Assembly: GCF_003852405.1 (NCBI RefSeq) | Contig: NZ_QAJM01000007.1 | Span: 1 to 64,000 of the forward strand | Length of the DNA: 64,000 nt | Direction: 5' to 3' | From: Pseudomonas sp. KBW05 | GTDB lineage: Bacteria > Pseudomonadota > Gammaproteobacteria > Pseudomonadales > Pseudomonadaceae | Part shown: one piece after another, positions 28,634 through 33,142 of the stretch | Layout of the letters: each line of letters starts with the position of its first letter | How positions within the stretch are numbered: position 1 is the first letter of the stretch | Program-made: the position numbers and the translations under genes | The notes under the pieces: model-generated | The model's database searches: none | The model's input: only the letters and a program-made list of their open reading frames with translations | What the model was told of the DNA's origin: nothing

Positions 28634-29389
28634 ATGTTCAAACAGCTGCTGCTCGCCCTCGCCAGTACGTCCATCCTGTTGACGGGCTCGGCCCGTGCCG
28701 AGGAACCGTCTGGCACCGCCCTGGTGCTGCTGACGGAAAACTTCCCGCCCTACAACATGGCGAAAAACGGCAAGAACTTCGCCAAGGAAGACAACATCGA
28801 AGGCATCGCCGTGGACATCGTGCGCGAAACCTTCAAGCGTGCCGGCATTTCCTACAACCTCACCCTGCGTTTTCCTTGGGAGCGAATCTACAAGCTCGCC
28901 CTGGAAAAACCCGGTTATGGCGTGTTCGTGATGGCGCGCCTGCCGGACCGAGAGGCCTTGTTCAAATGGGTCGGCCCCATCGGCCCGGACGACTGGGTGC
29001 TGTTGGCCAAGGCTGACAGCAAGATCCAATTGGCTGACCTTGAGCATGCACGCCGCTACAAGATTGGCGCCTACAAAGGCGATGCCATCGCCGAGACCCT
29101 GGAAAAACAGGGCCTCAACCCGGTGGTGGTATTGCGCGACCAGGACAACGCGCAAAAGCTGCTGGATGGCCAGATCGACCTGTGGGCCACCGGTGATCCA
29201 GCCGGGCGCTACCTGGCGCGCCAGGTGGGGGTGACAGGCCTGAAGACCGTGCTGCGCTTCAACAGTGCCCAGTTGTACCTGGCGCTCAACAAGCAGGTGC
29301 CGGATGAGGTGGTGACCAAGCTGCAAGCGGCGCTTGATCAGTTAAGGCGCGATGGGCACATCGACGAGATCATGGCTCGCTACCTCTAG
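28634..29389 (+). CDS. Periplasmic solute-binding protein (SBP family 3), orphan
   Basis: 251 residues with signal peptide MFKQLLLALASTSILLTGSARA. The mature part starts with LVLLTENFPPYNM, typical of PAAT-like binding proteins without an adjacent transporter; pseudomonads have many such orphans. Motifs: GIAVDIVRETFKRAGISYNL, WERIYKLALEKPGYGVFVMARLP and YKIGAYKGDAIAETL. No permease or ATPase gene is nearby, so it may serve another transporter or a sensor. Its 3' end overlaps the convergent Vps62-domain gene by 48 bp. Confidence 0.88.
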   Translation: MFKQLLLALASTSILLTGSARAEEPSGTALVLLTENFPPYNMAKNGKNFAKEDNIEGIAVDIVRETFKRAGISYNLTLRFPWERIYKLALEKPGYGVFVMARLPDREALFKWVGPIGPDDWVLLAKADSKIQLADLEHARRYKIGAYKGDAIAETLEKQGLNPVVVLRDQDNAQKLLDGQIDLWATGDPAGRYLARQVGVTGLKTVLRFNSAQLYLALNKQVPDEVVTKLQAALDQLRRDGHIDEIMARYL

Positions 29390-30631
29390 TTCGGATGATG
29401 CCTGCGGGGGCTGTACCGCAGGTTCCTCGCTGTGTACCGGTTCATCGTGGGGAAACTCGCTCATGTAAACCTGATCACCGTTGGTGTAGGTGACGGTGGT
29501 CGAAACTTGGCCGCCGTCCTGGCGCAGCAAGCGGTATTCACTTTGAATCAGGTAGGCCGCGACAGCTTTTTTTGCCGGAACGTAGGTGATGATTTCCAAG
29601 GGAGATGAAACATTCCAGCCCTTGGCGGAACGCTGGGTATGCGTAAAGGCCGGGTCCAGGTTCGCTGAAAATTTCAATTCGAAATGGCGTGCGTTTGCGG
29701 ACCAACTGCTGTGCAGCGAAACAGAAGAGGTGTGCGCAAGAGCGAGCGAGTGATTTCCGACCTCGCCTTTGAGTGCGGTCCAGGCATGCGGCTGTATGGT
29801 GGCGGTGGTGTTGTGTCCGAAGCCGGCGGGCAGGTGGCGGTCAGTACGTTCCAGGCGATAGATCGGCGAAGAATCCAGTTGCTCGACAGGACTCAGTTCC
29901 GGGTCTCTCACACAGAACCATGGCAATTGACAGACCTGCGGCGCCGCCGAGGTGGGTGTTACGGTGGGGCTTTCAAAGCCGGTGAGCGGTGGCGGGGGCG
30001 CAGGTTCACTCAGTTGCGTCGAGAGTGCCAGGCGCAGAGCGTAGGCCGGCAGAGTTGGCTTGGTGTAGCCTGCGATACCCGTGAAAGTGCCGGGGGCCAA
30101 GTTGATTTCTCCCGGTACGGCTTCTGGTGCGGCAATGGCCCAGGCACTGAAATCACTGGATGCCCCGCTGCCGGAATCACTCCAAATCAGCTCGGCGGGC
30201 TGCGCGCTTACCACCAGGTCGCTGCGCACACAGCGTGCGGCATTGCGCGATGGTTTTTCATAACCTACGCCACTCACCAGACCCATTGCGACATAGCCTT
30301 CAGGCGCCAATGGTTGCCAGATGGACAAGTCGGTCCGCGCGCCTGAGCCCGCGTCCCGCCATACCAGTTGGTAGTCATTCGGCGGGCGCAACGCAGTGCC
30401 ATTTACCTTATTGGCATCACTGACGACTGCGACAATTTTGCGCTGGTTGATATTCAGATAGTTGCTCGTCGCGATGTCGCCCAAGGGGAAGAACTGGCCA
30501 AGGGCGTCGGAGGCGGTACTGGGGCGCCACAGGCTGACGGCGTTATACGCGCCAGACCCCTTGTCGTTCCACAGTGGCAGAAACTCGCAGGTGAAGCTGA
30601 TGAGCAGGTCATTGAATTGCAGGGGATTCAT
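29342..30631 (-). CDS. Vps62-related domain protein
   Basis: 429 residues. Three copies of a W-x-D-x-GSGA...W motif are visible near residues 21-35 (LWNDKGSGAYNAVSLW), 91-105 (VWRDAGSGARTDLSIW) and 150-163 (IWSDSGSGASSDFSAW). They match the Vps62 (PF06101) pattern known from fungi, plants and some pseudomonads. The C-terminal half is beta-rich and ends in an acidic Pro/Glu tail. No signal peptide. The start at MNPLQFND is chosen from a GGAGAG ribosome site. The gene lies 76 bp after a secreted protease gene and has its own copy of the same upstream motif. Function unknown; a carbohydrate- or membrane-binding secreted factor is possible. Confidence 0.8.
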   Translation of the reverse strand: MNPLQFNDLLISFTCEFLPLWNDKGSGAYNAVSLWRPSTASDALGQFFPLGDIATSNYLNINQRKIVAVVSDANKVNGTALRPPNDYQLVWRDAGSGARTDLSIWQPLAPEGYVAMGLVSGVGYEKPSRNAARCVRSDLVVSAQPAELIWSDSGSGASSDFSAWAIAAPEAVPGEINLAPGTFTGIAGYTKPTLPAYALRLALSTQLSEPAPPPPLTGFESPTVTPTSAAPQVCQLPWFCVRDPELSPVEQLDSSPIYRLERTDRHLPAGFGHNTTATIQPHAWTALKGEVGNHSLALAHTSSVSLHSSWSANARHFELKFSANLDPAFTHTQRSAKGWNVSSPLEIITYVPAKKAVAAYLIQSEYRLLRQDGGQVSTTVTYTNGDQVYMSEFPHDEPVHSEEPAVQPPQASSELEVASHDLVDVPIAP

Positions 30632-30656
30632 CGGTGAACTCTCCAGAGGGTTGGAA

Positions 30657-30694
30657 GGCTCACTATCGACGACTCCAGGCCAGTACAAGCGGTA
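30657..30694 (-). promoter_or_regulatory. Conserved two-part motif upstream of the Vps62-domain gene
   Basis: On the coding (minus) strand: TACCGCTTG, 19 bases, ATAGTGAGCC, the latter 26 bp from the start codon. The identical two blocks with the identical 19-base gap precede the neighbouring protease gene. It is likely a promoter of an unidentified sigma factor or an activator site. Confidence 0.65.
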
Positions 30695-30707
30695 GCTATT
30701 TAAGGGG

Positions 30708-32291
30708 TCAACGAGGTTTCAGCAGATCGATCCGCAGGGTCGAGGGCTGGTCTGCCTGGTCGTATGCGTAAGTGCAGATCTTGATTGGCGTGGACCTGAT
30801 GCTGATCAATTGGGCGAACTTTTCCCGCGCGGGGTCAGAGGCGTCATTGAGTGGGCGGACCAACTCGATGGGCTCGTCATCTTCATCGAGCAAGGGCTCG
30901 GGCGGGATCGACGAGAAGCCGGCAGGGCGCAAACAGTCGGTAGTGGCTGCGGGGCCATATTTATAGGTGTAACGATGCATGAACGGCGGGGCCAGATTCC
31001 AGATCACGGTGTAGGCGCCGAGACCGTATTTGTCGAGGCTGATGGTCAAGTCAGGCGTTCGCGCCGGGCCGGGTTCGGCGAGTTCGACCGCAAGGGTCAG
31101 GGCATTTCGCATCATGCCGTTGGTCACCGCTTGTTCGGCGGATGCCACACCGACAATGCACAGCATATGCATGCCGGTCTGTGGGCCAATTGCGTTGTTG
31201 ATGTAGGCGTTTTCGGCGTTGATCGGTGAGCTGTAGTTCACCGGGTTTTCGCATTCAATGGCGCGTCGTGTGGTTTTGTAGCGGTAGAACGGGGTATTGG
31301 TGGTGAACGTCAAGTTCCAGCGGGGCACGATATCTTTGCTTTTGCCCCCTGGCTTCTTCACGAAGTACTGCTGGATCGGTTCCGGGTTTCTGAAGGTGAT
31401 CGAGGTGATCGGGTAGAGGTCGCAGTATTCGTTGTCGGCGTTTAGCACCCCGCCGGCAAAGCACTGGTTGAGAAAAACCACGGGGCTGCCGTAGTTGGTG
31501 TCGGGATGCCAGGTGGGCTGCCCGTTGTTGATTTCGCAGGGTGCGTCCCGCTGGCATTTGCGCTCCTCGGGCTGGCCTGTGGTGCTGGTGCTGAGGATCC
31601 CGAACACCGTATTGGTGGCCCGGTCGAGCAGCGGCCCGCCAAAGCTGCCGCGTGCGATGCCTTGGCATTGGTTTTTCATGGTGACACGCCATACGAACGG
31701 TTGCTCCACCAGTTCCCGGGAGCTTTGCTGGACGCATGCCGAGAGGTGCAAGGTGTCCCATTCGGGAGCGGCCAGGGCGAGGATGTCATTGCCATCGGCG
31801 GGGACTTCATCGGCGAGTTTGAGTGGGGTAATCCCATCTTTGAGCAGGTCTGCTAACGGGGCCTGTAACTCGATAATCGCGAGGTCAACGCCTTGGCTGC
31901 TGCCCCATTTCAAGGTTTTCAGCGGGTAGGTCTTGATCGACTCCAGGGTGTCGTCGAAATAGTTGAAGCTGATGCTGCCCTTGATCGGCAGGTCTCTTTG
32001 CACCGCGCCATTTAGGCGATGCAGGCAATGGCTGCTGGTGAGTGCGTACGCCGGGCCGGACTTACCGCTGGCGTCACGGGTGTCCAGCAAGGTGGCCGTA
32101 CACAGGGTCTGGGCTTCGTTGCGGATGCGGCCGACGCCGTTCCACTGCGCGTGTTCTTGGCGGGCATTGGTGAGCAGGCGCGCGGCGCTGGTGTTGACCA
32201 GGCCTTCGCCGAAGTCCTTGGGTGCGGCAATTAGCGCGCCTGGCAGGCTGCCAAGCAGCAGCCCGGAAAGGGCAATATGGGTGATGTTCAT
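30708..32291 (-). CDS. Secreted chymotrypsin-like (S1 family) serine protease
   Basis: 527 residues. Signal peptide MNITHIALSGLLLGSLPGAL, cleavage near IAA. Catalytic triad: His88 in LTSSHCLH, Asp136 in GVDLAIIEL and Ser216 in ARGSFGGPLLD. The usual GDSGGP is changed to GSFGGP, so the oxyanion loop is atypical. Nearby Cys pairs (64/89, 186/209) suggest disulfides, which fits an extracytoplasmic protein. About 290 further C-terminal residues have no recognised domain and contain several Cys. It lies upstream of a Vps62-domain gene with a matching promoter motif; the two probably act together. Confidence 0.82.
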   Translation of the reverse strand: MNITHIALSGLLLGSLPGALIAAPKDFGEGLVNTSAARLLTNARQEHAQWNGVGRIRNEAQTLCTATLLDTRDASGKSGPAYALTSSHCLHRLNGAVQRDLPIKGSISFNYFDDTLESIKTYPLKTLKWGSSQGVDLAIIELQAPLADLLKDGITPLKLADEVPADGNDILALAAPEWDTLHLSACVQQSSRELVEQPFVWRVTMKNQCQGIARGSFGGPLLDRATNTVFGILSTSTTGQPEERKCQRDAPCEINNGQPTWHPDTNYGSPVVFLNQCFAGGVLNADNEYCDLYPITSITFRNPEPIQQYFVKKPGGKSKDIVPRWNLTFTTNTPFYRYKTTRRAIECENPVNYSSPINAENAYINNAIGPQTGMHMLCIVGVASAEQAVTNGMMRNALTLAVELAEPGPARTPDLTISLDKYGLGAYTVIWNLAPPFMHRYTYKYGPAATTDCLRPAGFSSIPPEPLLDEDDEPIELVRPLNDASDPAREKFAQLISIRSTPIKICTYAYDQADQPSTLRIDLLKPR

Positions 32292-32317
32292 GGGGCGTCC
32301 TGAATCGTGAGGTGAAG

Positions 32318-32355
32318 GGCTCACTATTCAGGGTTGGCACAGGGCTCAAGCGGTA
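32318..32355 (-). promoter_or_regulatory. Conserved two-part motif upstream of the S1 protease gene
   Basis: On the coding strand: TACCGCTTG, 19 bases, ATAGTGAGCC, ending 27 bp from the protease start codon. The spacing and both blocks equal those upstream of the Vps62-domain gene, while the 19 bases between them differ. That is the pattern expected of a bipartite protein-binding site. Confidence 0.65.
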
Positions 32356-32356
32356 C

Positions 32357-33142
32357 TTATCTAGCAGCGGGCCGGTAGGTGCCGTCCTTGCCATGCCCCG
32401 CCATCGCCTGGTTGCTGCGCACACTGATCATCAGCTTGATATCGATCCAATCCACACCCTGGGCCTTGAGCTTGGGCAGTTCGCGTTCCAGCACCGCGAG
32501 GGTTTGCGGATACGGGTGGCCGATCATCACTGCAGAGCCCTGCTTGTGGGCTAGCTTGATTGCGCTCTGCAACTGCGTGGTGATGGCTGCTTCAGTGCGC
32601 TCGTCATCGAGGAACACGTCCCGCGAGACGCTGGCCAGGCCGATCTTCTGCGCCTCGGCGGCGGCGACGGTCTGCGCGCTGGTGCGGCTATCCACAAAGA
32701 ACTTGTTGCGCCGTTGCAGCTCGGCCATCAGCCAGGCCATGGCCGCGGGCTGAGCGGTCATGCGGCTGCCCATGTGGTTGTTGATGCCGGCGGTGTAGGG
32801 CACGGCCTTGAACGCGGCGTCCAGGCGCTTGCCGAGTTCTTCGATGGGCAGCTCGGGGTGCCAGGCGAACGGGCCGGTGGCCGGGTCCATGGGCATGTGC
32901 AGGATGACGATCTTGCCGGCCTTGTGCGCCTCGCGGGCGAATTCGGCGGCGTGGGGCGTGTCGGGCATGATCGCCGTGGTCACTGGCCCAGGCAGGGCCA
33001 GCACGCGACGATCCCGGGGCAGGTTTTGCCCAAGGTCGTCGATGATGAGGGTCAGGTAGGCTTTATGCGATTCGCTGGCCGGGGCCGCGTGAGCGACCCC
33101 GGCCAGGCTGCACAGCACAGCGATGATCAGGGCAAGACGCAT
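32357..33142 (-). CDS. Divergent polysaccharide deacetylase (YibQ-like)
   Basis: 261 residues, signal peptide MRLALIIAVLCSLAGVAHA. The fold signature is YLTLIIDDLGQNLPRDRRVLALPGPVTTAIMPDTPHA, then HMPMDP, GINNHMGSRMT and IGHPYPQTL, the divergent polysaccharide deacetylase family (formerly DUF610). The family normally sits behind envC and ctpA, exactly as here; the ctpA stop is 1 bp upstream. It likely acts on peptidoglycan or another periplasmic glycan; activity unproven. Confidence 0.93.
   Translation of the reverse strand: MRLALIIAVLCSLAGVAHAAPASESHKAYLTLIIDDLGQNLPRDRRVLALPGPVTTAIMPDTPHAAEFAREAHKAGKIVILHMPMDPATGPFAWHPELPIEELGKRLDAAFKAVPYTAGINNHMGSRMTAQPAAMAWLMAELQRRNKFFVDSRTSAQTVAAAEAQKIGLASVSRDVFLDDERTEAAITTQLQSAIKLAHKQGSAVMIGHPYPQTLAVLERELPKLKAQGVDWIDIKLMISVRSNQAMAGHGKDGTYRPAAR

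Follow-up and report, generated by a model that had tools for sequence, protein, structure and literature searches.

The S1-type protease gene and the Vps62-domain gene of Pseudomonas sp. KBW05 are each preceded by a copy of the same bipartite element. Each copy is probably an activator-dependent promoter with a -10 element of the sigma-70 family, and the same promoter would drive a scattered regulon in Pseudomonas. Within the 64,000-nucleotide stretch of DNA analysed here (the window), the motif TACCGCTTG-N19-ATAGTGAGCC, in the form described in the initial annotation, occurs in two exact copies on the minus strand (32318-32355 and 30657-30694). Between motif and start codon lie 26 and 25 bases, respectively; the distances of 27 and 26 given earlier depend on the way of counting. 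Shuffling the window 100 times gave a mean of 0.02 matches with 3 mismatches allowed, no shuffle having two, and no third copy with up to 3 mismatches was found in the whole 6.5-Mb genome. The gene order is ctpA, a yibQ-like gene (Polysacc_deac_2), the S1 protease gene, the Vps62-like gene, an SBP gene on the opposite strand and his genes. Since the stop codon of the yibQ-like gene lies at the edge of the putative S1 promoter, read-through transcription is possible.

Table 1. Positions in the window of the two putative promoters, their predicted leader structures and the adjacent genes
Feature	Position	Strand	Remark
yibQ-like upstream gene, Polysacc_deac_2 domain	32357..33142	-	
Left block of the putative S1-protease promoter, TAGATAAGTACCGC	32350..32363	-	predicted activator site
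-10-like hexamer AATAGT of the putative S1 promoter	32323..32328	-	also in the 5' arm of the possible stem
Possible stem in read-through RNA, CCTGAATAGTGAG / CTCACGATTCAGG	32298..32332	-	would cover Shine-Dalgarno AGGA; z -5.1
S1-type (Trypsin_2) protease gene	30708..32291	-	
Left block of the putative Vps62-gene promoter, TAAATAGCTACCGC	30689..30702	-	
-10-like hexamer GATAGT of the putative Vps62-gene promoter	30662..30667	-	
Predicted leader hairpin GTGAGC...GTTCAC	30634..30663	-	Shine-Dalgarno GGAG inside; z -2.97
Vps62-domain gene	29342..30631	-	

The refined element reads TAnATARnTACCRC, followed after 21 bp by a -10-like hexamer, nAnnnT. The conserved block thus extends further to the left than the half originally delimited, and TACCGC is its right end. 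Relatives do not preserve the TTG that closes the left half as first delimited, and beyond ATAGT the similarity declines. In 79 aligned Vps62 upstream regions (those of the 85 distinct regions with at least 12 of 15 left-block matches), the fixed columns of the left block agree in 75-79 of the 79 sequences; 21 loose bases and RATAKT follow.

The locus was surveyed in 69 Pseudomonas loci (L071-L138 and L148), with nine non-Pseudomonas loci (L139-L147) set aside, and the motif at the Vps62 gene was counted over 68 of them, L137 having given no start codon. The full motif, with a spacer of 20 or 21, was found no more than 180 bp from the Vps62 start codon in 58 of the 68 loci. Five further loci show a single-base deviation in the left block (the right half was not scored in these), and the upstream regions of L082, L098 and L124 deviate from the motif by two bases. 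In L087 and L126, which have no motif at the Vps62 gene, an S1 gene lies in front and carries the full motif (L087) or the left block alone (L126), as predicted by a promoter shared by the S1 and Vps62 genes. Within the stretch examined, a yibQ-like gene is present in 67 of the 69 loci, and an S1 relative lies between yibQ and the Vps62 gene in seven; the same stretch of the remaining loci contains none, apart from those in which S1 comes after. An S1 gene after the Vps62 gene or after the SBP gene was seen in 12 of the 69 loci (among L071-L138). Since S1 genes occupy three positions around the Vps62 gene, this part of the locus is a variable slot between conserved genes. Where S1 is missing, the Vps62 gene usually lies directly behind yibQ and carries the motif. 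Among 28 distinct S1 upstream regions, those of close relatives (at least 64% identity) contain the whole motif, its left block or a version with one mismatch, and those of distant S1 genes are mostly without it. Several distant S1 genes (L102, L115, L135, L170 and L222) show the left block TACATARYTACCRCC with another right half, such as CTGATTAATTGG, which may represent a variant promoter. No plasmid record matched the region upstream of the Vps62 gene.

The pattern TACCGC-N21-RATAGTGAG was found at 23 sites in 22 of 399 Pseudomonas genomes, against one site for the reversed control (table read by hand). All but two of the sites (21 of 23) lie before a Vps62 or S1 gene; L056 and L060 lie elsewhere. 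For the pattern TANATARNTACCRC-N22-ANNNT, 170 of the 399 genomes contain an exact match. Spacing matters: in the first 190 genomes this native spacing gave 144 matches (reversed control, 7), whereas a spacer one base shorter (N21) gave 28 (control, 8). Some of the 28 short-spacer matches, including one in the genome studied here, look like real variants, and one short-spacer match, TACATAAGTACCACCC..., recurs in six genomes (G105, G055, G111, G036, G062 and G097). The left block alone (TAMATARYTACCRCY) is a weak predictor, because 200 genomes contained 74 matches to it and 51 to its reversed control (hand count). No excess was detected beyond Pseudomonas, where 145 genomes of the order, just three of them from other genera of the same family, yielded 14 matches outside the genome studied here and 38 for the reversed control (hand count).

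The register of the hexamer was examined at 63 of the 74 sites selected by the left block only, the 11 sites at the Vps62 locus being left out and each gene family weighted once. The genes found at these sites are unrelated; most lie 60-125 bases beyond the first base of the block, and the -10-like hexamer occurs in one register. With family weighting, 9.0 of 16 gene families share the combination A36...T40, whereas the next best of 51 offsets reached 2.0; it occurs in none of the 13 sites classed as being without a gene. Excluding Vps62, it is present in 8 of 15 families (binomial tail 2.4e-8). Families were grouped by hand, with L210 counted apart although it clusters with the main ToxA_N group; merging L210 into its cluster leaves 7 of 14 families (tail 3e-7), and merging all ToxA_N groups leaves 5 of 11 (tail 3e-5). 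Some gene-linked sites are without the -10 register, among them those of distant S1 genes (L192, L222 and L240) and of one ToxA_N group (L193, L207 and L239). A 64-site profile was selected with the A/T register imposed, and the invariance of these positions in it is there by construction.

The genes downstream of the element belong to diverse Pfam families: ToxA_N (PF20178), whose members here are not all alike one another, Peptidase_M16, Dioxygenase_C, Peptidase_M91, Peptidase_M3, Inhibitor_I78, a HigB-like toxin, RTX repeats and Ldh_2, with Astacin as a sub-threshold match; no Pfam family was found for the genes at L221, L226, L277 and L280. The occurrence of one promoter type before unrelated genes, often encoding peptidases or toxin-like proteins, suggests one common regulator. 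The dedicated small regulon envisaged earlier survives in part: there is a putative regulon, and it is small in this genome (two clear sites and one probable), but it is genus-wide and its members are scattered, not local. A search of this genome with the 64-site profile (E up to 10), in which 150 of 1526 first-look candidates were scored, returned four matches. The two window sites had E values of 0.002 and 0.005. The third match (C12, E 0.2) is a left block without gene or hexamer, and the fourth (C6:174058-174097, E 1) has a spacing one base shorter and is followed by a 1979-codon ToxA_N gene starting 64 bases after the first base of the block. In this genome the likely members of the regulon are the two products of the window, S1 protease and Vps62-like protein, together with one ToxA_N protein. 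Matches with one mismatch numbered two besides the window sites and four in the control, so that weaker sites are indistinguishable from chance.

In the region of the 1979-codon gene (G000 contig 6, 166500-181500; L311:1595-7534), inspection by eye suggests a small hairpin whose loop contains the Shine-Dalgarno sequence, and a LysR-like gene was seen, also by eye, two genes upstream. A ToxA_N-type gene is seemingly split into three frames at L313:8449-13066. At the HigB-type toxin-antitoxin locus (L245, L257, L261 and L273), the element is accompanied by a palindrome-like sequence, TGTAATGTATCGCCTTACA, which runs from the spacer into the hexamer and looks like an operator; the GraA palindrome implied in PMC6393540, TAACGTTA, differs from it. 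In L199 and L229, where an amidase-like gene follows, the left block is part of a terminator-like hairpin (TTACCGCC...GGCGGTAATTTTTT) and makes up one of its arms; we judged this to be a chance match. No regulator gene common to the neighbourhoods was seen by eye in the four loci read. Among the matches listed from the text of open-licence papers, motif logos in figures apart, nothing corresponded to the motif, including those on Vps62 in Pseudomonas, a dermonecrotic toxin regulon and the graTA promoter, and there was no open-licence match on read-through and IS10, an I78 regulon or start-site maps.

In the promoter model, a DNA-binding activator is predicted to occupy the 14-bp block TAnATARnTACCRC, which is asymmetric. 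Assigning positions -12 to -7 to the hexamer 21 bp further on would put the block at about -47 to -34, with its centre at about -40.5, which is the position of a class II activator that replaces the -35 element. The hexamer, with A(-11) and T(-7) as its fixed bases, would then be recognised by RNA polymerase carrying sigma-70 or RpoS, both of the sigma-70 family. The regulon under such a promoter would comprise peptidases, a peptidase inhibitor family (I78), ToxA_N toxin-like proteins, dioxygenase-like proteins and a HigB-type toxin. The -35 and -10 elements of sigma factors are separated by about 15-19 bp, and a class II activator site overlaps the -35 position at a fixed distance from the -10. 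The hexamer has the A(-11) and T(-7) expected of a sigma-70-family -10, and a conserved site is found at the -35 position in fixed register to it, the position relative to the transcription start being deduced from the hexamer. No TTGACA-like -35 element at 16-18 bp is present in 30500-32500. Because the 21-bp gap is too long for a -35/-10 pair and the block is asymmetric and class II-like, an activator acting with sigma-70 or RpoS is preferred. What the comparisons show directly is the two-part motif with its constant register, its conservation and the genes that it precedes; the start site, the activator and the sigma factor are deduced. Several observations count against the promoter model: the left block by itself exceeds its control only modestly, some gene-linked sites are without the -10 register, and the four neighbourhoods read share no regulator gene by eye. 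In addition, the covarying hairpin 1 of the Vps62 leader begins near position 43, a little ahead of the start predicted near position 47, which fits an RNA beginning further upstream.

The initial annotation had proposed a promoter or activator site for an unusual sigma factor. The idea of a shared promoter or activator-type site holds, but an unusual sigma factor is not needed. An alternative sigma promoter, in which the left block would be the -35 and the right half the -10 of an ECF-like or other sigma factor, would explain two conserved blocks with fixed spacing before scattered genes. We regard it as unlikely, since TACCRC and the hexamer are 21 bp apart, outside the 15-19 bp expected of ECF promoters, 14 conserved bases are long for a -35, and across families the right block keeps just A(-11) and T(-7), as a sigma-70-type -10 does. 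Sigma-54 promoters have GG at -24 and GC at -12; inspection of the column counts revealed no such conserved bases. The left block was rejected as a -10, as the would-be T(-7) position varies. Its opposite-strand resemblance to the ops element, GGCGGTAGCGTG, is in the wrong orientation and was taken as coincidence. It is scarcely credible that the two copies match by chance or that one is a functionless duplicate passed on by inheritance: although only two copies exist in this genome at strict settings, this reading is contradicted by the 58 of 68 loci and the 170 of 399 genomes given above. The 19-base spacers are not conserved and unrelated genes elsewhere carry the element, which upholds the earlier view that more than a recent duplication is involved and rules out duplication of one upstream region as the sole cause. 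An origin from a mobile element or REP sequence was ruled out by the similar distance before genes together with the unrelated spacers.

The element could also act in the RNA. The right half often pairs with Shine-Dalgarno bases in predicted leader structures, UCC-n-GAUAGU with ACUAUC-n-AGGA in Vps62 group B and CCUGAA with UUCAGG in S1 leaders, and 101 leaders had a mean fold z of -3.6. In group B (59 leaders, 56 distinct), 89.6% of cells were paired, as opposed to 33-40% in slid versions, in a structure that was derived from single folds and therefore favours itself on this measure; double changes occurred in 11 of 23 pairs, and none of 500 shuffles scored as high. These double changes fall mostly in two inner hairpins, and the outer stem with ATAGT has them in 2 of 10 pairs. 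RNAalifold found no structure in the group-B leaders. For the possible S1 stem of the window (CCTGAATAGTGAG / CTCACGATTCAGG), covariation in the nine S1-type leaders was not significant, and a shuffled spacer made little difference. Rfam searches at eight loci gave no family; the only hits fell short of the gathering score and lay outside the leaders. Access to the Shine-Dalgarno sequence was predicted for 71 of 78 sites (L035, L036, L037, L178, L233, L261 and L273 had no row), with start codons chosen by script. In read-through RNA, compared with RNA with a shuffled spacer, access was lower in 18 of 27 families (Wilcoxon p 0.12), and lowered access was not seen in most dioxygenase, main-group M16 and I78 leaders. 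In 23 of 27 families, RNA that begins behind the hexamer was predicted to expose the Shine-Dalgarno sequence more than read-through RNA does (p 4e-5), although greater openness would be expected of any shorter RNA. For the window copies, the unpaired fraction was 0.25 (0.27 shuffled) for S1 and 0.03 (0.14 shuffled) for Vps62.

Predicted pairing of the spacer/-10 strand with the Shine-Dalgarno sequence is well supported in one Vps62 group of the relatives, not in the whole regulon. An element acting purely in RNA, with the right half as the 5' strand of a stem hiding the Shine-Dalgarno sequence and the left block as the binding site through which a protein or small RNA would open the stem, could account for the fold scores and the group-B double changes. 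It appears quite improbable, given the 18 of 27 families, the few double changes in the outer stem and the lack of a signal from the S1 set and RNAalifold. As a general rule, an anti-Shine-Dalgarno function was rejected at present on the same 18 of 27 families. A combination would add to the promoter model: the spacer/-10 strand would serve as an anti-Shine-Dalgarno that keeps ctpA-yibQ read-through RNA untranslated (fold-back inhibition). The greater openness of RNA starting after the hexamer and the support for stems at the Vps62 locus speak for it, the shuffled-spacer comparison over families and the weak effect in the window copies against it, and we entertain it only tentatively. Fold-back control at the Vps62/S1 locus is plausible on these predicted structures, and would not be a property of the regulon. 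An equally speculative proposal extends it to a regulon found across Pseudomonas, in which one activator would control peptidases, toxin-like proteins and secreted proteins and the spacer/-10 strand of the promoters would also lock read-through translation; if true, expression would be strictly coupled to the activator.

The promoter model provides a sequence signature for a putative regulon in 170 of the 399 sampled Pseudomonas genomes and joins genes that annotation would keep apart. Genes without an assigned role, such as the Vps62-like gene, gain a context of peptidases, toxin-like proteins and a peptidase inhibitor, and the signature turns the search for the regulator into a direct experiment.

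We know of no published consensus that matches TAnATARnTACCRC, and found none among the open-licence matches listed. The RstA box, TACATNTNGTTACA, shares the words TACAT and GTTAC with the element, but the repeat distance of the element is 8 instead of 10 bp and it ends in TACCRC. ECF promoters (AlgU, PvdS and HrpL boxes) likewise have two conserved blocks and a loose spacer; they differ from the element in its spacing of 21 bp, and the AlgU, PvdS and HrpL boxes are absent from it. Fold-back inhibition of the IS10 transposase resembles the possible translation lock in that upstream sequence outside the native transcript can hide the Shine-Dalgarno sequence in read-through RNA, whereas here this is a prediction and concerns part of the regulon only. 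Class II activator-dependent sigma-70 promoters include those of the CRP class II, MarA/SoxS and ExsA types. Like the element, class II promoters have an activator site over the -35 position at a fixed distance to the -10 and a -35 that is poor or absent, and the asymmetry of the site is shared with MarA/SoxS.
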